25,260 nt of DNA from Candidatus Micrarchaeum sp. (GTDB lineage: Archaea > SpSt-1190 > DYHY01), in assembly GCA_020723935.1 (NCBI GenBank), contig DYHY01000016.1, positions 1 to 25,260 on the forward strand, given 5' to 3'. The notes under the pieces were generated by a model. That model was not told where the DNA came from, made no database searches, and saw only the letters and a list, made by a program, of their open reading frames with translations. This document shows positions 158 through 19,574 of the stretch, in pieces (position 1 is the first letter of the stretch; each line of letters begins with the position of its first letter). The translations under genes and the position numbers were made by a program.

Positions 158-1234
158 ATGGCCGAAGACTATTACGCGACTCTTGGCGTTTCCAGGAGCG
201 CGAGCGCCGAGGAGATAAAGCGGGCCTACCGGCAACTGGCGAGGAAGTTCCATCCGGACGTCAGCAAGGACGCAGGCGCCTCGGAGAAGTTCAAGAAGAT
301 AAACGAGGCCTATTCGGTCCTCTCGGACGATTCCAAGCGCGCCCAATACGACAGGTTCGGGCCCGACCAGCCGGGCTCCACGCAATCGGCCCAGTGGCGC
401 GACTTCTCGGGCTTCGAGTCCTCTGGCCTGGGAGACATATTCGAGACGTTCTTCGGCGGTGCGAGCCCCTTCTCCTTCGGCGAGGGCATGGGGAATGAGG
501 GGCGGCCGAGGGCGAGGAACATACGCTATCCAATGACGATAACCCTCGAGGAGGCCTTCAAGGGCGCCTCCAAGGGGATAAGGGTCAAGCGGAGAGACCT
601 GTGTCCTGAATGCAGGGGCGAGGGCGGCTTCAGCCCGGCGAGGTGCGGAGAATGCGGCGGAACGGGCAGGATCGCCCGCACGAGGCGCACGATGATCGGG
701 CTCTTCCAGACCTTCTCGACGTGCCCCGAATGCAGAGGCCGCGGCGAGAGGTTCTCGCGCGCATGCTCGCGCTGCAGGGGTGAGGGCGAAGTGAGCGCCG
801 AGCACGACCTCACGGTCGAGGTCCCGGCAGGGGTGGACAGCGGGACGACCCTCAGCCTTTCCGGCGAGGGCGAGGCGGGCGGGGACCTCTACGTCCTCAT
901 CAACGTCGCGGAGCACAAGCTCTTTAGGCGCGACGGCGCCGACCTCATTTACCCTGTCAGGGTGTCCTTCGCGCAGGCCGCGCTCGGCGGGGAGATAGTC
1001 GTCCCGGCCCTCGACGGCGACGTTTCGGTGGAGCTGCCTGAGGGGACGCAGACTGGGGAGGAGCTGCGCATCGCGCGCCGCGGGATGCCCTCCCTGCGGG
1101 GCAGGGGCCGCGGGGACATCGTCGTCGAGGTGACGGTTGCGACTCCGACGCGGCTTTCCCAGCGCCAGAAGGACCTCCTGCGAGAGTTCGACGGCCTCCA
1201 GCAGCAAAAGAAAAAGGGCCTCTTCGGGCTATAG
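158..1234 (+). CDS. dnaJ: Chaperone protein DnaJ (Hsp40)
   Basis: Cytosolic Hsp40 co-chaperone that stimulates the ATPase of DnaK and delivers unfolded clients. A J-domain occupies the first ~70 residues with the invariant HPD (in KFHPDVS), followed by a Gly/Phe-rich linker ([12 protein letters not shown]). Next comes a zinc region with four complete CxxCxGxG motifs ([32 protein letters not shown], about residues 149-206), then the C-terminal substrate-binding domains. At 358 residues it has full type I length. I chose ATG 158 because [11 protein letters not shown] is the usual DnaJ N-terminus and GGAG precedes it, though only 3 nt away. An in-frame GTG at 125 sits at the spacing expected for a leaderless start and would add 11 residues. 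No dnaK or grpE is visible in the window. Confidence 0.96.
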
Positions 1235-1256
1235 GCGCGGGGACTTGCCGGGAAAG

Positions 1257-1264
1257 GATTAATA
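1257..1264 (+). promoter_or_regulatory. TATA box of the small Cys-rich gene
   Basis: GATTAATA lies in the short gap after dnaJ. Its centre is 31 nt before ATG 1292, which suggests a leaderless transcript. Confidence 0.55.
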
Positions 1265-1291
1265 CGCGCGCCCCGGCAAGAGCCTGCCATC

Positions 1292-1579
1292 ATGGGAGAT
1301 ACCAGTTCCAGGGTTCCCGACGCTTCGGCGGAGGAAATAAGCACCTTCTCGATGCCCTGCCCCCTCCTAAAGATGGAGAGGAGCGTCCCGCCCGCGACGT
1401 GCAGGGCGTGCAGGGACAAGCGCACGTGCCCGCAGGTCCAGGCGCTCCTCGGCGCCGAGAGGGAATACGCCGCAAGGTTCAAGGGGACGATCCTGGAGTC
1501 GGCGATGAAGCGGGTCTCGAGGGCGAAGAAGGACGTCGCCTCCTACATACTTGAAACGGAGCGCCCCCACGGACGGTAG
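1292..1579 (+). CDS. small Cys-containing hypothetical protein (95 aa)
   Basis: I do not recognise this protein. It has 95 residues. Four cysteines sit in the N-terminal half (C23, C37, C40, C46; spacing C-x13-C-x2-C-x5-C, within CRACRDKRTC), which could bind zinc or a metal cluster. The C-terminal half is basic and probably helical (AMKRVSRAKKDV). It has its own TATA box at leaderless spacing and ends next to the DUF167 gene, overlapping the longest possible version of that gene by 29 nt; the two may be co-transcribed. GC content and codon use match the neighbours, and the start, promoter and stop context make a real gene likely. Function is unknown. Confidence 0.7.
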   Translation: MGDTSSRVPDASAEEISTFSMPCPLLKMERSVPPATCRACRDKRTCPQVQALLGAEREYAARFKGTILESAMKRVSRAKKDVASYILETERPHGR

Positions 1580-1595
1580 GAGGGAAGAAGGAGCG

Positions 1596-1844
1596 TTGCT
1601 GATCAAGGTGCTTGTGAGGCCGGGGCGCAAGGAATCCGGGATTTCCGAGCCGTCCGACGAGTTCGAGTGCGCGAAATGCGACCTGGTCACGAGCTTGACT
1701 TCCAAGCCCGAAGGGGGCAAGGCCAACAAGGAGCTCTTCGCCCTTCTGCGCGCAAGGTTCGGCTCCGCAGAGCTCGTCTCGGGCGCGGCCTCCTGTCTCA
1801 AGGTCTTCCGGGTGCCGGGCGCGGCGGACGAAAAGGAAATATAG
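1596..1844 (+). CDS. DUF167 (YggU/UPF0235) family protein
   Basis: Small alpha/beta protein of the DUF167 family, found in bacteria, archaea and eukaryotes and lacking an established biochemical function. The recognisable core is IKVLVRPGRKESGI near the start, then LTSKPEGGKANKELFALLRARFG and ELVSGAASCLKVFRV; the P-x-GGKANKEL segment is the family signature. Length (about 82 residues) is normal. The start is uncertain: TTG 1596, preceded by AAGGAG, gives a compact DUF167 protein, while TTG 1551 would add 15 residues and overlap the upstream gene. It probably shares a transcript with the Cys-rich gene. Its 3' end contains the TATA element of the following radical SAM gene. Confidence 0.85.
   Translation: MLIKVLVRPGRKESGISEPSDEFECAKCDLVTSLTSKPEGGKANKELFALLRARFGSAELVSGAASCLKVFRVPGAADEKEI
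1837..1844 (+). promoter_or_regulatory. TATA box of the B12-radical SAM gene
   Basis: AAATATAG overlaps the last codons of the DUF167 gene. Its centre is 30 nt before ATG 1870. Confidence 0.5.
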
Positions 1845-1869
1845 GCCCCTTGCAGGCGCGCATCCGGAA

Positions 1870-3245
1870 ATGAGGGTGGTCCTCACGCGCCCGCGCTACC
1901 ACACCTTCCTGATAGCCCCGCCCCTCGGGATGGGATATGTGTCCTCTTACCTCAGGAGCAGGGGCCACGAGACGCTCCTCCTCGACGCCCTGAACCTGGA
2001 CCTGGGGAGCGAGGAGATAGTGGCCGAATGCAGGCGGTTCGGCGCGAGGATAGTAGGCATCTACCTCCTCTCGCCTTCTTCCTCCCTGGGATAGAGCTCG
2101 TGAAGAAGCTCAAGCAGGCAGGGATGTTTGTCGTCGTCGGAGGCGCCCAGGCGTCCTTCCTCCCCAAGGTGACCCTCGAGCGCACCGGCGCGGACGCCGT
2201 TGTCGTCGGCGAGGCCGAGCGGACGTTCCTGGAGCTCGTCGAGGCGGTGGAGGCGGGGCGCGGGCCCGAGGGCGTGCCCGGCGTGATGACTGGAAGGACC
2301 CGTCGGTTCGTGGCGAGGAAGACGATAGGGAGGCTGGATTCCCTCCCGTTCCCGGACTGGGAGCAGATGGATCCGCGGAAGTACAAGAAGGCCCCGCACG
2401 GGGGGTTCATCAAGAGCTTCCCCTATGCGCCGATAACGACGACGCGCGGCTGCCCCTACAGGTGCAAGTTCTGCGCAAGCCCCCATTTCTGGAAGACCTT
2501 CCGCGCGAGGAGCCCTGAGAACGTCGTGGACGAGATAGAGGTGCTCGCGACAATGTTCGGCGTGAAGGAGATACATTTCGAGGACGACAACCTGACGTTC
2601 TTCAGGAAGCACATTGCCGGAATCTGCGAGGGGATCATCAGGCGCGGCCTGAAGGTGAGCATGTTCACGCCCAACGGGATAAGGGCCGACAAGGTGAACC
2701 TCCCGCTCCTGAAGCTCATGAAGCGGGCGGGATTCTACGGCGTCGCGTTCGGGATGGAGTCGGGCGACCAGAAGATACTCGACAACGTCAGGAAGGATGT
2801 GAAAATCAGGACTCTGGAGAGGGCGGTGGGCATGGCAAAGGAAGCCGGCCTCATGACGCAGGGCTTCTTCATCTTCGGCCTCCCGGGCGAGACGAAGGAG
2901 ACGATAGACAAGACGATAGATTTCGCGTGCAGCCTGCCCCTTGACAGGGCGCAGTTCAACGTCCTGGACGTTATGCCCGGGACGGAGCTGTGGAACGACC
3001 TGGGGTACGACGCCAAGACCTATCCGTGGGACGCGAGGAGCTTCCACGAGGTGACCTGGAAATCCCCGGGCCTGTCGAGGAAGGACCTTCAGGACGCCCT
3101 CCCCCGCGCGTTCTGGCGCTTCTACTCCAGCCCCCGCAGGTTCCTTTCGGCGGCCAGGTTCATGCGGCCCGAGCAGCTGCCCTACCTCTTCAAGCGGTTC
3201 CTGGACTTCCGGATGGTTCCTTCCCCGGCGGCGAAGAAGGGCTAA
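1870..3245 (+). pseudogene. B12-binding-domain radical SAM protein, interrupted by a frameshift
   Basis: An N-terminal cobalamin-binding-like Rossmann domain (PPLGMGYVSSYLRSRGHE, then VVVGGAQASFLP and DAVVVGEAE) is followed by a radical SAM core with the CxxxCxxC cluster motif (GCPYRCKFC, Cys codons at 2451, 2463 and 2472), EIHFEDDNLTF and GFFIFGLPGET. This is the BchE/P-methylase-like architecture (class B); the substrate cannot be told. Reading from ATG 1870 reaches a TAG at 2092-2094, while the rest of the protein is one frame back. Adding a single G after 2073 joins both parts seamlessly as LLSAFFLPGIELVKKLKQAG. The repaired protein has about 459 residues, complete for the family. Only this one lesion is seen, so it is either a recent inactivation or a sequence error. 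Confidence 0.88.
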
Positions 3246-3267
3246 GAAGGCCGCGCAGACAAAATCC

Positions 3268-3275
3268 TATAATAA
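3268..3275 (+). promoter_or_regulatory. TATA box of the first GT-C-like gene
   Basis: TATAATAA lies just after the radical SAM stop. Its centre is 32 nt before ATG 3304, supporting that ATG as the true start even though the downstream frame is shifted. Confidence 0.6.
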
Positions 3276-3303
3276 GGCGCGGCCCCGCGGGCGCCGGCAG
3301 GAA

Positions 3304-4873
3304 ATGCCGACGACGCTCGCATCCGCAGCAACGACAGCCGGGCCCTTTCTGCTTCTCCTGGGGGATACTCCTCCTGCCGGCCCTGCCGTTCTGGACGCGG
3401 CGCGTGCGGGGCCTCGCCGTCCCAGCCGTCCTTTCCGCCGCGACATCGCTTGCGGCGGTGCCCTTCATCTCGGCCTTGCTGAAAATCATCGGAGCGGGGG
3501 CGATTCTGGGGCCTGCGCGCGTGCACATTCTTTCCGCGCTCGTCCTGTTCCTCGTCCTCGCCTACGTCCCGGCTCCCGGGGCAAGGAAAGAGAAGCTGCG
3601 GCCGGCGGGAACGGATGCGCCCTCCCTCGCCCTTCTCCTCGCGGTCGCGGCGGTCTATCTCCTCGCCTCCGTTGACCCGGCCTCCACCTCCGCCCTCTAC
3701 GAGCGCACCGCCGGGATTTTCGCGTCCGGCGCCGCCTTTCCCGGAGGCGCGAAGGTCCTGGGCGCGGCGCCCTCCGACTACGGGATGTCGACTCTAGGTG
3801 ACCAGCCGGAGGGCGCGCCGGTCGCCGCCGCGCTCCTCCTCTCCTTCCTCGGGCGGGCGGCTGCGACGGCGCTTTTCCTCCTTCTCCCGGCCGTCCTCGG
3901 GTTCGTCCTCGTGCGCGAAGCGCTCCTGCGGGCCGGCTCGCCCAAACTTGCTGCGCCCCTGCTCGCGGCGATCCTCTTCGTCAATCCGCTCGTCCTCAAG
4001 AGCGGGTTTGTCACGCATTTCGCCCTCCCGTTCCTCCTTTTCCTCTCATCTTTCCTCGTCTTCCTCATGTCTTCGGAGGACTTCTCCGGCCGGTCCCTCC
4101 TGGCAGGGGGGATCCTCGCCGCCCTCCTCTCCTCCCGCCACGAGCTCCTGGTATGCGCGCCGGCGGTCCTCCTCGCGCTCGGCCTTTGGAGGACGCCCTG
4201 GAGCAGGCCCGCCCTCTTCCTCGCCGGGTTCCTCGTCCTGATCTTCCCGTCGCTCTACTTCCACTGGACCGTTCTAGGGAGCCCCCTCGCCCACGAGACG
4301 CAGGTCGTCGCGCCCGCCGAGGGATTCTACCTCCAGTGCCTCGGGCCGGCGTGCTTCAGGTTCAACGGCCTCCTGAACTTCCAGGGCGGGACGATAGTCC
4401 GCACGCCTGGCTATCCTTACCCCGTCTTCCTCTACCTGCCGCTCCTGTTCCTGTCCTCCTTCGGGCTCCTCGCGTCCGCCCTCGCGCTCCTCGGCGCGTC
4501 CGCGGCCCCCCGCGCGGCGGCCCCCTGGATCCTCTGGCTCGCCTTCTCGTTCCTCCTCTTCGCCCCGATGGAGAACTGGGACGACAACAAGCTTTCCGCG
4601 TTCCTCTCCTCGGCCGCGCCCTTCCTCCTGCTCTGCGCGGCGGGCCTGCGGGAGCTGAAGGGGCGGCCCGCGGCGCTCCTCGCGATAATCGCCGCCCTCG
4701 CTCTCCTCCAGCTCCTCGCCGGCGCCCTGGAATTCCCCTTGGACGCGCGATGGAGCCTGAGGATGGCGGGCGTCCCGGGGGATCCGGACGCTGGCGCCCA
4801 TGTCCTGCGCGCAGCCCTCCTGGCGCCCCGGCTCCTGCCGCGCCTTCCGCAATTCGCAGGCTCCGCCGGCTGA
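3304..4873 (+). pseudogene. polytopic membrane protein, GT-C glycosyltransferase-like, frameshifted near its start
   Basis: About 522 residues rich in Leu, Ala and Phe, with roughly ten or more hydrophobic segments separated by short Arg-rich loops. An extramembrane loop carries DYGMSTLGDQPEGAP, and a C-terminal tail follows the last membrane span. Overall shape resembles lipid-sugar-dependent GT-C transferases (PMT/ArnT type), but I see no decisive motif. ATG 3304 has a TATA box at the right spacing, yet its frame leaves the membrane-protein frame after 20 codons. Removing one G from the G5 run at 3360-3364 gives GPFLLLLGILLLPALPFW, a perfect first membrane segment. Without that repair no convincing start exists for the long downstream frame. 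It may work in envelope or protein glycosylation. Confidence 0.65.
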
Positions 4874-4930
4874 CCCCCCCCGGTTCATCCGCTTCCGGTG
4901 GAATTGTTACCGGAAACTCGCATCGGAAGC

Positions 4931-4938
4931 AATTTAAC
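4931..4938 (+). promoter_or_regulatory. TATA box of mcm
   Basis: AATTTAAC lies in the gap before the MCM gene. Its centre is 36 nt before ATG 4971, slightly longer than the usual spacing here. Confidence 0.5.
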
Positions 4939-4970
4939 GGGCCAGGCGCCGGGCTGGCGAGTACCAGGGA

Positions 4971-7004
4971 ATGGGGCTAGACAACGAGGAGGCGGTGCGT
5001 CGGTTCAAGGAGTTCCTCATAAGGACCGATTACGAGAAGCGCCTGCGCGAGTCCGTGAACAAGGGCTCGAGGAGCTTCCTCGTCTCCCTCTCGGACCTCG
5101 AGAAGTACGACCCGGACCTCGCGGACACGATAATCCTGCGCCCCATCGAGATAATCGAGGAGCTTGAGGCCGTCGTCTCCGGGATGGACCTCTCCACGAA
5201 GGAGAGGGTCTACGTGCGCATCTACGACATGTGGTCCGACTTCGATGTGAAGCTCAAGGACCTGCGCACCAAGCACCTGGGGAAGCTCGTGCAGGTCGAG
5301 GGCCTCATCAGGCAGGCGTCCGAGGTGCGCCCCGAGGTCCTGGAGATAACATTCGAGTGCCTTGACTGCGGTAACAAGATATCAGTCCTGCAGACGGAGC
5401 ACGGCATAAAGAAGCCGACGAGATGCATCTGCGGCAAGAGCGTCTTCAAGGAGGTGGACAAGGCCTTCCGCGACAGCCAGGGCCTGAAGCTTGAGGAGTC
5501 GCCCGAGCGCCTCGTCGGCGGCGAGCAGCCCAGCAGGGTGGATGTCATCCTCCACGACGACCTGGTGGAGCCGACGCTGAGGGAGCGCCTCACTCCCGGG
5601 AACCGTGTGAAGGTGACCGGGGTGCTGAAGGAGAAGCCCAACATCCTCAGGACGGGCGCGCGCTCCAAGATATTCGAGATCTACCTGCACGCGATATACA
5701 TCGAGAACACAGTCCAGGAGTTCGAGAAGCTGGAGCTCACCAAGGAGGACGAGGACGCCATCAGGCAGCTCGCCTCCGACCCCAAGATAAAGGAGAAGAT
5801 AGTCGCCTCGATCGCCCCGTCCATCTACGGGAACGAGCGGATAAAGGAGGCGATCGCCCTGCAGCTCTTCGGCGGGGTCTCCAAGATCCGCCAAGACAAG
5901 ATGAGGACGCGCGGCGAGATCCACGTCTTCCTCGTGGGCGACCCGGGGAGCGGCAAGTCCCAGCTCCTCAAGTACGTGAGCATGCTCTCCCCCAAGTCCA
6001 TGTACGTCTCGGGCAAGGGCGCTACCGGCGCGGGCCTCACCGCGGCCGTCGTGAAGGACGAGTTCCTCGGCGGCTGGGCTCTGGAAGCGGGGGCGGTGGT
6101 CCTCTGCAACAGGGGCCTGTGCGCGATAGACGAGATAGACAAGATGGCCGAGGACGACAGGACCTCGATGCACGAGATCATGGAGCAGGGGACGGTGTCG
6201 ATAGCCAAGGCCAACATCCACGCGAACCTGCGCGCCGAGACGTCGATTCTTGCCGCGGCGAACCCCAAGTACAGCCGCTTCGACCCCCATAAGGAGATGA
6301 TAGACCAGATAGACATGCCCGAGACCCTCCTCTCGCGCTTCGACCTCATCTTCGTCCTGCGCGATGTCCCGGACAGGGAGAAGGACGAGAGCCTCGCCGA
6401 CCACATCCTGATGCTCCACAAGCAGCCCAAGAGCCACCTCAAGGCGGCGATCGACAGCACCCTGATGAGGAAGTACATCGCGTACGCCAAGAGGACCTTC
6501 GAGCAGACGCACCTCACCAGCGAGGCAGTCGCCGAGATCAAGTCATTCTACGTGGGCCTGCGCACCAAGCACCTGGGGGAGCGCGAGGAGCTCCAGTCGG
6601 TCCCGATAACCGCGAGGCAGCTGGAGGCGATGGTGCGCCTCGCGGAAGCGAACGCCCGGCTGCGCCTCTCGGACACCGTGACGGCCGAGGACGCCCTCAA
6701 GGCGATAGACCTAATGAAATACTGCCTCTACCAAATAGGATTCGACCCGGAGACAGGGAAGCTGGACATCGCGCGCCTCGAGGGGAGCGTATCAACGGCC
6801 AAGAGGAGCAAGATAAACACCTTCGAGCAGGCGCTCAAGGAGATAGAGAAGGACGGATCGCTCCCCTTCAAGCAGGTCGACCTCGTGGCGAAGGCCGTAG
6901 AGCTCGGGATGTCCCAGGAGGACGCCGAGGGCATAATGGACAAGCTCATTAAGCAGGGGACGCTCTACTGCCCGAGGCCGGGCCTCGTCCAGCGCGTCGG
7001 CTAA
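4971..7004 (+). CDS. mcm: Replicative DNA helicase MCM
   Basis: Archaeal MCM, the hexameric ATP-driven 3'-5' replicative helicase. The N-terminal domain holds a zinc site (CLDC at residues 130-133 and CIC near 152-154) and an OB-fold (GKLVQVEGLIRQASEVRP). The AAA+ core has Walker A GDPGSGKS (about residue 323), Walker B CAIDEIDKM (about 385) and the arginine-finger segment LLSRFDLIF (about 454). A winged-helix tail follows (DGSLPFKQVDLVAKAVELG). The 677 residues are normal length, and no intein interrupts the Walker region, a common insertion site in other archaea. The start matches a TATA box and the usual N-terminus. It lies directly upstream of the RPA-like gene, whose own promoter sits in the short gap. 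Confidence 0.98.
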   Translation: MGLDNEEAVRRFKEFLIRTDYEKRLRESVNKGSRSFLVSLSDLEKYDPDLADTIILRPIEIIEELEAVVSGMDLSTKERVYVRIYDMWSDFDVKLKDLRTKHLGKLVQVEGLIRQASEVRPEVLEITFECLDCGNKISVLQTEHGIKKPTRCICGKSVFKEVDKAFRDSQGLKLEESPERLVGGEQPSRVDVILHDDLVEPTLRERLTPGNRVKVTGVLKEKPNILRTGARSKIFEIYLHAIYIENTVQEFEKLELTKEDEDAIRQLASDPKIKEKIVASIAPSIYGNERIKEAIALQLFGGVSKIRQDKMRTRGEIHVFLVGDPGSGKSQLLKYVSMLSPKSMYVSGKGATGAGLTAAVVKDEFLGGWALEAGAVVLCNRGLCAIDEIDKMAEDDRTSMHEIMEQGTVSIAKANIHANLRAETSILAAANPKYSRFDPHKEMIDQIDMPETLLSRFDLIFVLRDVPDREKDESLADHILMLHKQPKSHLKAAIDSTLMRKYIAYAKRTFEQTHLTSEAVAEIKSFYVGLRTKHLGEREELQSVPITARQLEAMVRLAEANARLRLSDTVTAEDALKAIDLMKYCLYQIGFDPETGKLDIARLEGSVSTAKRSKINTFEQALKEIEKDGSLPFKQVDLVAKAVELGMSQEDAEGIMDKLIKQGTLYCPRPGLVQRVG

Positions 7005-7071: not shown

Positions 7072-7959
7072 ATGGCGCAGGACACATTCCCCCAAGCCAA
7101 CCCAGGCCCGGCAGGGACGGGGCAGCCCCAGCAGCAGGTACAGCCCAGGCTCGTCGCGGTCAAGGCCAGCATTTCCGAGATAGCGGGCGGGAACTACTTC
7201 GAGGTCTCCGGGAGGTGGGAGCCCGACTACCTGATAAGCCCCTCGGGAAGGAGGATGTCGCGCGTCAACCTCCTGGGCGTAGTCGTCGCCAATTATTTCG
7301 CCGAGGACGGCAATTACGGGACCGTCACGATAGACGACGGGACGGAGACCATCCGCCTCAAGGCTTTCAAGGGCGAGGTGAAGATCCTCAAGGAGCTCCA
7401 GTTCGGGCAGGTCGTCTCGGTCATCGGGAAGCTTCGCAAATACCGAGACGAGGTCTACATCTCGCCCGAGGCCATCTTCCCCTCGGACCTCGACAAGCTC
7501 ATGCTCAGGCGCCTGGAGCTCGTCAGGGAGACGAGGAAGGTCTCGTCCCTGCGCGATCTCGTGGCCAAGACCTCCGCCGAGTTCGACGATCCGTCCAAGA
7601 TGGTCGAGTTCCTGTCGACGAAATACGGCTTCGATCGGAGCGCGATCGAGGCGGTGATAGTCTCGCAGAACCCCTCCGCAGGCCCGGGTTCCCCTGCGGC
7701 CCGGGAGCAGCAGGCGGCCGCGGCCGAGGAGGGGGCAGAGGGCGGGGCGCCGGAGGCGCCGCCATCCGCGGCGGCGATCAAGGCAAAGCAGGCCGTCCTC
7801 TCCGCGATAGAGAAGACAGGCTCGAGCGGCGCCGAGTACGGCGCGATCCTGCGCGAGACCGGCCTCTCCTCCTCGGCCGTCGACGAGTCAATAAAGGAGC
7901 TGATAAGCGAGGGCGAGATCTTCGAGCCCAAGAGCGGAAGGTTCCGAAGGCTGCTCTAG
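7072..7959 (+). CDS. RPA-type single-stranded DNA-binding protein (OB fold plus winged helix)
   Basis: Single-stranded DNA-binding subunit of the RPA32-like kind. After a low-complexity Gln/Pro/Gly head, an OB-fold spans roughly residues 60-125 (VNLLGVVVANYF, GTVTIDDGTETIRLKAF, GQVVSVIGKLRKY, VYISPEAI). A long Ala/Glu-rich linker (about 205-235) leads to a C-terminal winged-helix domain (about 238-295: GAEYGAILRETGLSSSAVDESIKELISEGEIFEP) of the kind used for protein contacts. The 295 residues and domain order match archaeal Rpa2/RPA32-like proteins. ATG 7072 is fixed by the TATA spacing. Adjacency to MCM fits a role at the replication fork; whether a large RPA subunit exists elsewhere cannot be told. 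Confidence 0.88.
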   Translation: MAQDTFPQANPGPAGTGQPQQQVQPRLVAVKASISEIAGGNYFEVSGRWEPDYLISPSGRRMSRVNLLGVVVANYFAEDGNYGTVTIDDGTETIRLKAFKGEVKILKELQFGQVVSVIGKLRKYRDEVYISPEAIFPSDLDKLMLRRLELVRETRKVSSLRDLVAKTSAEFDDPSKMVEFLSTKYGFDRSAIEAVIVSQNPSAGPGSPAAREQQAAAAEEGAEGGAPEAPPSAAAIKAKQAVLSAIEKTGSSGAEYGAILRETGLSSSAVDESIKELISEGEIFEPKSGRFRRLL

Positions 7960-8019: not shown

Positions 8020-8445
8020 ATGGCGAAATCCGAGTTCTACTTGTACGACGAGATGCTCTCGAGAGCGAAAGCCAAGCTCCCCCAGACGACCGGTAGCGAG
8101 GTCCTCTTCAGCGTGCCCAAGGCCGACGTCTGGATATCTGGCTCAAGAACAGAGATAAGGAACTTCCTTGACTTGTGCGACGTCATAGACAGGAAGCCCG
8201 AGCATATGCTAAAATACCTCAACCGCGAGCTCGCGACGCCGGGGAACATGGACGGTCCGCGCCTGATACTCAAGGGCAAGATAGGCCCGAACCAAGTGAA
8301 CCAGCGCATCTCCGACTACGTGAAGGAGTTCGTCCTCTGCCCCGCCTGCGGACGCCACGAGACGGTGCTCCTCAAGGAGGACCGCGTGACGATCATGAAG
8401 TGCAACGCGTGCGGTGCCCAGAATTCAGTGCGCGCAATTGCATAG
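8020..8445 (+). CDS. Translation initiation factor aIF2 subunit beta
   Basis: Beta subunit of the heterotrimeric factor that brings initiator Met-tRNA to the ribosome. The N-terminal helix is followed by the alpha/beta core (TEIRNFLDLCDVIDRKPEHMLKYLNRELATPG, then LILKGKIGPNQVNQRISDYVKEFVLCP) and a C-terminal zinc ribbon with CPAC (107-110) and CNAC (128-131). The 141 residues are normal length and all four zinc ligands are present. The protein ends QNSVRAIA. The start is set by the TATA box. Two more decayed copies of its final codons follow downstream (see the repeat at 8410-8549). Its grouping with NMD3-like and DUF424 genes is familiar in archaea, although here an opposite-strand gene intervenes. 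Confidence 0.97.
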   Translation: MAKSEFYLYDEMLSRAKAKLPQTTGSEVLFSVPKADVWISGSRTEIRNFLDLCDVIDRKPEHMLKYLNRELATPGNMDGPRLILKGKIGPNQVNQRISDYVKEFVLCPACGRHETVLLKEDRVTIMKCNACGAQNSVRAIA

Positions 8446-8549
8446 GGGCATCCGGCCCAGGGCCGGCGCCTCAGAACTCGGTGCGCGCCATAGCTTAGAT
8501 AGGCGCGCATGGCCGGCGCAGCAGAACCACCGTTCGGGCCGTCGCCTGA
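8410..8549 (+). repeat. three tandem copies of the aIF2-beta 3' end (one live, two decayed)
   Basis: Copy 1 is the true gene end (CAG codon at 8419 to TAG 8445). Copy 2 (CAG at 8472 to TAG 8498) again encodes QNSVRAIA-stop, with five of eight sense codons changed, all synonymously. Copy 3 (CAG at 8522 to TGA 8549) encodes QN-T-VRAVA-stop once one extra C (8528-8531) is discounted. Copies 2 and 3 also share the preceding block 8456-8477 and 8506-8527 (18 of 22 bases identical) and both have one extra base just before the CAG. Unit lengths are 50-53 nt. This fills the gap before the convergent gene; no other gene is visible there. Confidence 0.8.
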
Positions 8550-8553
8550 TAAA

Positions 8554-9924
8554 TCACAATCCGAACCAGACCATCGCGGTCGAAACAAGGACGAGCACCG
8601 CCAGTAGTAGCACGGCTCCCGCCGCGAGGAGCAGGTACCCGTTCTGCGTGAGGGTCGCGAAGAACGCGAAAATCGCGAGGACGACGACGAGTGAGGCTAT
8701 CTGCGGGAGCGGGAACCATTTCTGCGTCATCTGGTAGACCGTGGCCCAGAGGCTCTTCTCGATCCTCACCTCCTCAGCCGGGAACTTGAAGGCGTCGTAC
8801 TTGTTCCCGAGGGCGTCCGTGTAGACGACCGTCCCCGCCGGAACGGCCACCTTCTCGCCGGAGACGACGGACACGGCCCTGAGCTTCTGCTCGCTCCCTC
8901 CCGGGATTTTGAGGGACGCGACGATGGAGGACGATTCAATCACGGGCGGGACCTCCTGCTGGAGGGAGACGGAAGCCTCCGCCGAGCCCGCGTTCCTGAG
9001 GATTATCTCCGTCTCCAGGACCGCCTGTATCGCGTTCCCCGCCTTCCTCCATTTTATCGTCTCGGTCCTCTTGGCCGAAAGCGCCGGCATCTGCATGAGG
9101 ACTGTGAGCGGCGCGGAATAGGAGCGCAGCCTCCCCGCATCCACCCAGGTGGCGGTGTAGTTGAATTCGGCGATGCCCTCGCTGAAGTTCCCTACCGACG
9201 GCGCGGTGACTGTCGCGAGGAGCCCGCCGGAATCGCCGGCGGCAAGGGTCTGCATCGAGGCGAGGACCTTCCCCGAGGAGAGCGTCCAGCCCGCGGGGAG
9301 CTTCAGCGAGAGCGCGACGGCGTCGGCCGAGAGGGCCCCTGCGTTCCTAGCAGTTATCCCGATCCTCAGCCTCGAGCCCGGGAGGGCGTAGGCCTGCACG
9401 GCCGCCTGCCCGTCTACCTCAAGGACGCTCACGCTCGTGTTGATGAGCGAGCGGCCGACGTAGTAGAAGCCGTCTATCTCGTTTGACGAGCGCGACTCGG
9501 AAAGGCCGTCCTGCGTTGTGTAGGAGATCCTGGCGGGGAGGAAGACGACCTTCTGGCCCGCCCCGACCGCGACGAGGTCGTATGTGAAGCTCAGGTTGCT
9601 CGTCGTGACGCCGATCATGCACGTGAGCGCGCCGGGGGAAAAGGCGCAGAAGGACGGATAGTTGAGGGCGGAGAACGCCTCGGGGACCGGATCGTCGAGC
9701 CTCTCGAGCTTGAGCTGCTCGGCGGAGGAGACGGAGACGCTCACGCGCACGCCCGACCCGAAATCCACTATCTTGTCGCCCGTGACGTTCTTTGCGACGC
9801 GCACGTCCGCCGCGCCGGCTAGGGGCAGGGCGAGGACGACGAGCGCCGCCGAGAGGACGGCGAGGAAGGTCAGGGCGCCGGAGAGGCGCGGCCCACTCCA
9901 AAGGGGCCAATTTCTCTCCACCAT
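8554..9924 (-). CDS. predicted secreted, membrane-anchored cell-surface protein (456 aa)
   Basis: I do not recognise a named family. A signal peptide or membrane anchor spans about residues 12-38 (hydrophobic run ending in LAGA). A large extracellular beta-rich region follows, with Asn glycosylation sequons (NVT, NLS, NTS, NFS, NYT) and repeated segments resembling CARDB/NEW3-type Ig-like modules (LRIGITARNAGALSADAVALSLKLPAGW; later TEIILRNAGSAEASVSLQQEVPP). Two hydrophobic segments close the C-terminus (SLVVVLAIFAFFATL and YLLLAAGAVLLLAVLVLV). This suggests a surface or S-layer-associated protein with a short cytoplasmic end. It is the only opposite-strand gene in the informational block, and its ATG lies exactly 30 nt from the shared TATA element centred at 9954. 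Confidence 0.82.
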   Translation of the reverse strand: MVERNWPLWSGPRLSGALTFLAVLSAALVVLALPLAGAADVRVAKNVTGDKIVDFGSGVRVSVSVSSAEQLKLERLDDPVPEAFSALNYPSFCAFSPGALTCMIGVTTSNLSFTYDLVAVGAGQKVVFLPARISYTTQDGLSESRSSNEIDGFYYVGRSLINTSVSVLEVDGQAAVQAYALPGSRLRIGITARNAGALSADAVALSLKLPAGWTLSSGKVLASMQTLAAGDSGGLLATVTAPSVGNFSEGIAEFNYTATWVDAGRLRSYSAPLTVLMQMPALSAKRTETIKWRKAGNAIQAVLETEIILRNAGSAEASVSLQQEVPPVIESSSIVASLKIPGGSEQKLRAVSVVSGEKVAVPAGTVVYTDALGNKYDAFKFPAEEVRIEKSLWATVYQMTQKWFPLPQIASLVVVLAIFAFFATLTQNGYLLLAAGAVLLLAVLVLVSTAMVWFGL

Positions 9925-18362: not shown

Positions 18363-19574
18363 TTAAGAAACAAATTTGACTTTTCCGTAGACACTGTCAT
18401 AGCCTGCATCTATTGCGACCTTCCCCCTCCTGCACGCGGCAATCGCCCTTCCGACCGCGGGGTCCACCCTCGCAAGCTCCTCCTCCGGTGCGAAGAGCAG
18501 GGCAGAGAGTTCCGAGCCGAAGGCCGAGATGAACTTCTCCTGGATCCTTTCCGCCTTCGCGGTCCCCGCGCCGACGCCCAGGGCCGCGGAGACGATCTCT
18601 GGTATCGGAAGCGTCGTCACGTAGGGCTTCTTGGTCCGCCCCGCGGCCCGGGACTGCAGCTCCTCGATCCTGTGCTCGACGCCGAGGGTCAGGCGCTTGC
18701 TGCACTCCGGGCAGAGGTTTCCGGTTTTCAGGGAGTCGGCGGGAGCGAGGCTTACGCCGCAGTTCCTGTGGCCGTCCAGATGGTATTTGCCGAAGGCCGG
18801 GAAGACCTCGACAGTCCCGAGGATGCTGTTCTTCCTTATCTGGGAGATGACGCCAGAGTAGCTCTTCACTTTCTTCATCGCGGTCGCCTCCCTCCCGAGC
18901 CTCGCGAGCGAATGCGAATGCGCGTCGGAGAAGGAGACTATCGTCCTGGCGTTGAGGAAGGCCATCCGCCTGTTCATCTCCGGGTCGGAGGAAAGGCCTG
19001 TCTCCACCGCGTGGATCCTGCCGGCGAGGTCGCCGAAAGCCTCCTCCAGCGAGCCGTAGTGCACCCCCTCGCCGAACATTCCGAAATGCGGCGTCCAGAC
19101 GTGGGCGGGAATGACCTCGATCTTCTTATCCGTCCCAAGGCACGTCTCGAGGAGCGCGCGCGAGCCGAAATGCAGGAAGGGCCGGCCCATCTTCTCGATC
19201 TTCCCCACCTTGGCCAGCTTGGAGAAGAGGGTCTTGGCGCAGTCCCTGTCGGGGATCAAGACAACGTGGTGGGACTTGTCCGAGCAGCAGACCTCCATGG
19301 AGAGGACGAAGGGGAATTCATCCGCGGTCGGCGGGCTGCCTCTGGCCGGCCCGGACCGGCCTTCGGCCCACTGGAGGCCGTCGCTCTCGCAAGTCTCCGA
19401 ATAGAGGATCTCGCGCCAGCGCCGGTTCGTGAGATCGCCCGTGCCGAGGAGCCCCAGGCCCTTCTTCCCCGCGAGGCCCGCGAGCTTCAAGACGTCCCCC
19501 TTTTTCGAGAGGTTCCCGCAGTAGTTGGAATGGATGTGCAGGTCGGCGAAGATCGCGCTCTTGGGGATCGTCAC
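18363..19574 (-). CDS. Endonuclease Q (EndoQ), PHP-domain DNA repair nuclease
   Basis: EndoQ cleaves DNA 5' of deaminated bases (hypoxanthine, uracil, xanthine) and abasic sites; it is known from Thermococcales, some methanogens and some bacteria. The N-terminal PHP metal site is clear: ADLHIHSNYCG (His12, His14), LGLLGTGDLTN, FVLSMEV, VIPAHVWTPHFGMFG and VSFSDAHSHS. A zinc-binding region follows (NCGVSLAP, then GNLCPECSKRLTLGVEHRIEEL); only three cysteines are obvious in it. The C-terminal helical part has LPIPEIVSAALGVG and ends VAIDAGYDSVYGKVKF. The 403 residues are close to the family norm. GTG 19574 is the only sensible start. It stands intact between decayed genes, suggesting it is under selection. 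Confidence 0.9.
   Translation of the reverse strand: MTIPKSAIFADLHIHSNYCGNLSKKGDVLKLAGLAGKKGLGLLGTGDLTNRRWREILYSETCESDGLQWAEGRSGPARGSPPTADEFPFVLSMEVCCSDKSHHVVLIPDRDCAKTLFSKLAKVGKIEKMGRPFLHFGSRALLETCLGTDKKIEVIPAHVWTPHFGMFGEGVHYGSLEEAFGDLAGRIHAVETGLSSDPEMNRRMAFLNARTIVSFSDAHSHSLARLGREATAMKKVKSYSGVISQIRKNSILGTVEVFPAFGKYHLDGHRNCGVSLAPADSLKTGNLCPECSKRLTLGVEHRIEELQSRAAGRTKKPYVTTLPIPEIVSAALGVGAGTAKAERIQEKFISAFGSELSALLFAPEEELARVDPAVGRAIAACRRGKVAIDAGYDSVYGKVKFVS

Follow-up and report, generated by a model that had tools for sequence, protein, structure and literature searches.

Gene-end copies behind aIF2-beta and other genes of an archaeal class as possible traces of serial insertion

Introduction

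Attachment-site arrays are already known. In Dehalococcoides, tandem islands at ssrA leave over a dozen short repeats of the ssrA end, each preceded by a motif (PMC3146451). As in the genome described here, copies of a 3' end standing in a row mark island borders and some islands lack integration genes; unlike here, there is one target gene, the islands are large and many of them carry a serine integrase (PMC3146451). In the present case the targets include many protein and tRNA genes, numerous steps contain no gene and an integrase was not found. The pattern is thus a variant of known arrays, set apart by its many targets, by tiny steps that hold no gene and by the absence of a detected integrase.

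Archaeal counterparts have been described in the Thaumarchaeota, whose elements integrate into protein genes at the 3' end, sometimes supply their own stop codon and can stack in tandem (PMC6563490). These elements and the EF-2 casposons resemble the present case in being archaeal, in using protein-gene 3' ends, in replacing the stop codon and in occurring in tandem at one target. However, they are large and carry genes for a tyrosine recombinase or Cas1, and the accessible part of that source reports no ladders with 50-nt steps (PMC6563490). In fungal mitochondria, mobile ORFs replace the C-termini of genes and the native end stays downstream (PMC3630166). A foreign and largely synonymous C-terminus as the live end is common to both situations, although the fungal carriers are homing endonuclease genes, the events are single and tRNA genes are not targets (PMC3630166). 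Integrons also exist in archaea, and their cassettes are likewise small, hold one or a few genes, form arrays, end in a structured site and often occur in genomes without an integrase (PMC9668308). Integron cassettes use attI and attC (PMC9668308), whereas the sites here are host gene ends and those tested have no attC match.

The ladder behind the aIF2-beta gene

The window is the whole stretch of DNA that was analysed, 25,260 nt, and represents one entire contig (C18) of a 1.14-Mb archaeal assembly of 47 contigs with 91% completeness. It contains the gene for aIF2-beta, a protein with a match in 61 of 61 archaeal genomes. A preliminary description of this DNA reported three serial copies of the gene's end at positions 8410-8549 with a spacing of 50-53 nt, and the sequence is as claimed (Table 1). 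The repeated unit is the gene's last nine codons, of which two extra copies follow downstream, copy 2 at 53 nt from the live end and copy 3 at 50 nt from copy 2. These direct repeats are separated by only 23-26 nt and fill almost all of the gap between aIF2-beta and its convergent neighbour (8446-8553). Spacers 1 and 2 are alike at 19 of 23 nt, CAGAAC included. With a simple tandem repeat the ladder shares a near-constant unit length (53 and 50 nt) and related spacers.

Table 1. Features of the aIF2-beta gene end and its surroundings, in window coordinates.
Feature	Position	Strand	Remarks
aIF2-beta gene, 141 aa, its end copied	8020..8445	+	ORF; Pfam PF01873 eIF-5_eIF-2B, E 1e-32
Live gene end, QNSVRAIA-stop, candidate attachment site	8419..8445	+	CAG AAT TCA GTG CGC GCA ATT GCA TAG
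Spacer 1	8446..8471	+	Hairpin CCGGCCC-A-GGGCCGG at 8452-8466, just 5' of copy 2
Copy 2 of aIF2-beta end	8472..8498	+	CAG AAC TCG GTG CGC GCC ATA GCT TAG; stop TAG retained
Spacer 2, related to spacer 1 (GCGCATGGCCGGCGCAG / GCCCAGGGCCGGCGCCT)	8499..8521	+	
Copy 3 of aIF2-beta end	8522..8549	+	CAG AAC (c) ACC GTT CGG GCC GTC GCC TGA; QN-T-VRAVA-TGA
Convergent neighbour gene, NPCBM-associated / NEW3 domain	8554..9924	-	

A degenerate pattern for QNSVRAIA-stop matches twice in the window, where shuffles predict 0.12 matches. Across the 1.14-Mb genome, with a tolerance of three mismatches, it finds only the live end and copy 2, and the reversed-pattern control finds nothing. The viral contigs searched for this pattern gave no match. 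The divergence of the copies had been called almost only synonymous, which is true of copy 2, where five of five differences from the live end are silent third-position changes. Copy 3 fits loosely, with one extra base to discount, the conservative replacements Ser>Thr and Ile>Val, and TGA in place of TAG. Comparison with relatives had been proposed, and no ladder was present in the aIF2-beta downstream regions compared; this absence is little informative because the nearest protein among the genomes compared, from the same family (G001), is only 54% identical. The C-terminus of aIF2-beta is poorly conserved among relatives.

Gene-end copies at other protein and tRNA genes

Gene-end copies occur behind numerous other genes of this genome, for proteins as well as for tRNAs. 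When the last 24 nt of 841 genes, covering 870 kb, were compared with the next 200 nt downstream, 13 genes had a copy matching at 17 or more of the 24 nt, against 1.8 in shuffled pairs. The excess is found in the direct orientation only, the reverse-complement control of the same scan giving 1 copy against 2.05 expected; gene starts compared with upstream DNA gave 4 against 2.3. A protein-level scan over 595 kb, in which a gene's last 8 codons before the stop were sought within 250 nt at 5 or more of 7 residues, yielded 12 copies against 0.2 in shuffled gene/downstream pairs; the first amino-acid-level scan was skewed to coding-like copies, and because it favoured them the statistics are taken from the nucleotide-level scans. 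For exact copies lying farther away, the shuffled null stayed at about 3.6 at every match length and is uninformative because the shuffled pairs matched the genes' own ends.

Among tRNA genes, at least 15 of 20 nt of the 3' end recur within 400 nt in 6 of 29 cases in this genome (about five without an adjacent tRNA gene) and in 7 of 23 in the sister genus G001 (about six without one), where tRNA-Leu, -Arg, -Asn and -Val are affected. Four protein-gene cases were found in 100 kb of G002, which belongs to another family of the class, and the gene-end scans of two unrelated archaeal controls (200 kb each) showed no clear excess. Relative to the live gene, the end copies occupy all three frames, and on contig C16 a copy lies directly behind two stops (TAATAG). 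Weak hairpins lie just 5' of the copies and surpass those of control sequence in strength (p 0.008). An Rfam search returned tRNAs only.

The preliminary description had singled out aIF2-beta as the target. Integration specific to this gene is rejected, the pattern being genome-wide and not special to it.

A row of genes for proteins with class-III signal peptides (pilin-like) also lies on C16 (7428-11993), as near-identical tandem copies with several end copies behind.

Inserted DNA between gene-end copies

Direct repeats of the target's 3' end stand at both borders of inserted DNA, in the manner of attL and attR of a tyrosine-recombinase element, at four loci, two in this genome (C20 and C30) and two in the sister genus (L058 and L170 of G001). 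On C20, the gene for a transporter (58973-59846) has a 929-nt insert behind it (59846-60775), beyond which 25 nt of the gene end recur without a mismatch. This insert has 40% GC, compared with 62-65% in the adjoining genes and 63% in the genome, and holds a split DUF3800 gene; just before the copy, its right end forms a GC hairpin similar to that of aIF2-beta spacer 1. On C30, about 600 nt with a small, AT-richer ORF (46% GC) separate a tRNA-Gly gene from an 89-nt exact repeat that begins with the tRNA-Gly end.

Both loci of the sister genus start from a tRNA-Leu gene. At L058 a gene-less insert of 161 nt separates the tRNA-Leu gene from the copy at 7281, and a ParE-like/RHH pair separates that copy from the next, at 7959. 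At L170 a gene-less insert of 125 nt lies between the tRNA-Leu gene and the first copy (875); a 4.1-kb island then leads to the second copy (4975), and guaA to the third (6831). The island holds five genes (PIG-L, glycosyltransferase, GTP cyclohydrolase II, SLOG and radical SAM). Gene-less and gene-bearing steps thus occur within the same arrays. A structured sequence is common to the gene-less inserts at several loci of G001 and to the end of the 4.1-kb island, in each case just before the copy of the tRNA end. At L058, L170 and C30 there are sites on both sides, no recombinase within and a stacked arrangement, as in a CIME or att-site accretion.

The last interval of L170 is an observation in its own right. 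Within 657-6850, a housekeeping gene stands between two copies of the tRNA-Leu 3' end as if it were a member of the array; from its own sequence we take it to be guaA (GMP synthase).

Copies that bracket inserts in this way are the signature of attachment sites stacked through serial insertion. The integration of mobile elements into gene ends, proposed earlier, is thereby supported in kind in this genome and its sister genus. No integrase-bearing element lies between the aIF2-beta end copies, and the tyrosine recombinase families PF00589 and PF16795 had no match in G000 (this genome), G001 or G002 (84-91% complete). In this genome (about 91% complete) no IS110 transposase (PF01548) exceeded the threshold, and the serine recombinase family PF00239 was absent, its one sub-threshold match being in G001 only. 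Cas1 (PF01867) is likewise missing from this genome, which does not fit a casposon or a CRISPR-like duplication. As regards integrons, no PF00589 match could stand for intI, and neither the aIF2-beta ladder nor five other stretches contain a pair of the attC consensus (RYYYAAC ... GTTRRRY). The enzyme may be encoded on elements missing from the assembly or be of an unrecognised kind.

Of ten genomes of the class (G000-G009), eight have no PF00589 protein match, not even a XerA-like one; such matches were limited to G006 (at L177) and G003.

A proposed explanation: serial insertion at gene 3' ends

In this class there is good support for serial insertion at the 3' ends of genes. It is also the single explanation that best accounts for the copies, a judgement in which confidence and doubt are about balanced; for aIF2-beta, local duplication comes close behind. 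The observations behind it are the copies themselves, their recurrence in direct orientation at unrelated gene ends, their presence at both borders of AT-rich gene-bearing inserts and the structured sequences shared within the sister genus. Protein and tRNA genes would offer their 3' ends as repeated landing sites for small DNA inserts, with the last 20-30 nt of the gene as the attachment site and a site-specific recombinase acting in trans. With each insert would come another version of the gene end that takes over as the live one, and the old end would be displaced downstream behind a short hairpin-bearing flank. Inserts could be gene-bearing or gene-less, the latter measuring 50-180 nt and including the two aIF2-beta steps. 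For aIF2-beta we infer the same origin of the steps, a live end that is the youngest version and a recombinase working in trans. We put at about even the chances that the aIF2-beta ladder consists of two gene-less insertion scars at a gene-end attachment site.

Several observations weigh against insertion. No recombinase of the families searched was found in this assembly of about 91% completeness, the aIF2-beta steps hold no genes, other gene ends (C5, C28 and C14/C17) carry identical arrays with the same period, one unit on C17 has no stop, and the silent divergence is not significant in a generous model of drift.

A broader proposal is a cassette system of this archaeal class, in which many protein and tRNA 3' ends act as recombination sites, a putative recombinase stacks small inserts with or without genes and silently recoded ends keep the host genes intact; this is offered as a speculative possibility. 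If serial insertion is correct, short end copies would allow earlier insertions to be read off in archaea with almost unknown mobile elements, and would show where these elements and the recombinase should be sought. Serial insertion would further represent a multi-target, integrase-poor way for genomes to collect cassettes, with a toxin-antitoxin pair and even the housekeeping gene guaA lying between attachment-site copies.

Alternative explanations

The strongest alternative for aIF2-beta is local tandem duplication, which we regard as a realistic prospect somewhat short of an even chance. Replication slippage at a hairpin behind the stop would have duplicated the gene end together with its hairpin spacer twice, with no mobile element involved; the first copy, being live, would have accepted silent changes only, and the outer copies would have drifted. 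Plain local duplication does occur in this genome. Identical tandem arrays of similar period straddle gene ends on C5 (53 nt, 2.5 units) and C28 (92 nt), a 45-52-nt array of at least seven copies extends across a contig break from C14 to the start of C17, and a 75-nt array of 2.7 units is found at tRNA-Pro on C11. Identical local copies, named in the preliminary description as an observation that would count against integration, are therefore real at other gene ends such as those on C5 and C28. Because such identical arrays occur elsewhere, local duplication stays a strong rival for aIF2-beta, and the 53/50-nt ladder could be an aged array of this kind. The related spacers and a divergence that rises with distance from the gene agree with it. 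Copies around foreign AT-rich genes are left unaccounted for.

The silent differences were examined by simulation under two rate models, with the live copy limited to silent changes and the outer copy free to change. Drift at equal mutation rates on the branches predicts more replacements than are seen, both for copy 2 (p 0.012) and for 14 copy pairs combined (p 4e-4). In a generous model, in which half of all changes fall on the live branch, the values are 0.10 and 0.75, and the combined bias is compatible with drift of the live branch. An individual case is IERTFGQ-stop of G002, where seven of seven differing codons are silent (p 0.001 at equal rates, 0.04 in the generous model). Mismatches in the nucleotide-level set number 23, 25 and 53 at the three codon positions. 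Serine switches between AGC and TCC at C17:70717 and on C16 need two changes each and are harder to account for by drift. Silent-only divergence had been taken as proof that the copies evolved as gene ends. The bias points weakly in that direction (p 0.01-0.10 for copy 2) and is insufficient alone to carry the argument, because the live copy's own silent drift accounts for much of it.

Whole aIF2-beta duplicates deleted down to their tails, an alternative already raised in the preliminary description, would give coding-type divergence without a mobile element. Every copy, however, ends after about 20-50 nt, whether behind one of many unrelated protein genes or behind a tRNA gene, and hairpins mark the junctions. 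No longer remnant of a gene was seen, and the full tandem copies found are limited to pilin and similar paralogues. Collapsed tandem genes are therefore very unlikely. The chance of an assembly artefact that joined strain variants of one gene end is slighter still: the source is a metagenome assembly and several tandem arrays lie at contig ends, but the spacers are distinct from the gene and from one another, and G001 and G002, which are separate assemblies, show the pattern too. Least credible of all is that the copies are translated, so that ribosomes which frameshift or run past the stop codon would still add an unchanged C-terminus; the frame of copy 2 is open from 8175 to 8498, yet the copies occupy random frames, one follows the TAATAG double stop on C16 and tRNA genes are affected likewise, which speaks against functional translation.

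Other repeated sequences

On C17, at 18475-18723, at least five gene-end-like units (VATDLPSGRPLATFF-stop) follow a scaffold gap and are mosaics of each other; the unit without a stop, mentioned above, has lost it within this array. Copies of a 55-nt AT-rich sequence (CTATAATATCGGCAGAAAGTTTTTAATATAAATTGAACTTTCTTATTTGTTGAGG) border AT-rich DNA at the start of C37, at about 2.8 kb on the same contig and at the end of C22 of this genome, and possibly represent a second insertion family. The window itself begins with a tandem array at positions 1-63, in which a 12-nt unit (CCAAGGGGAACC) is repeated about five times.
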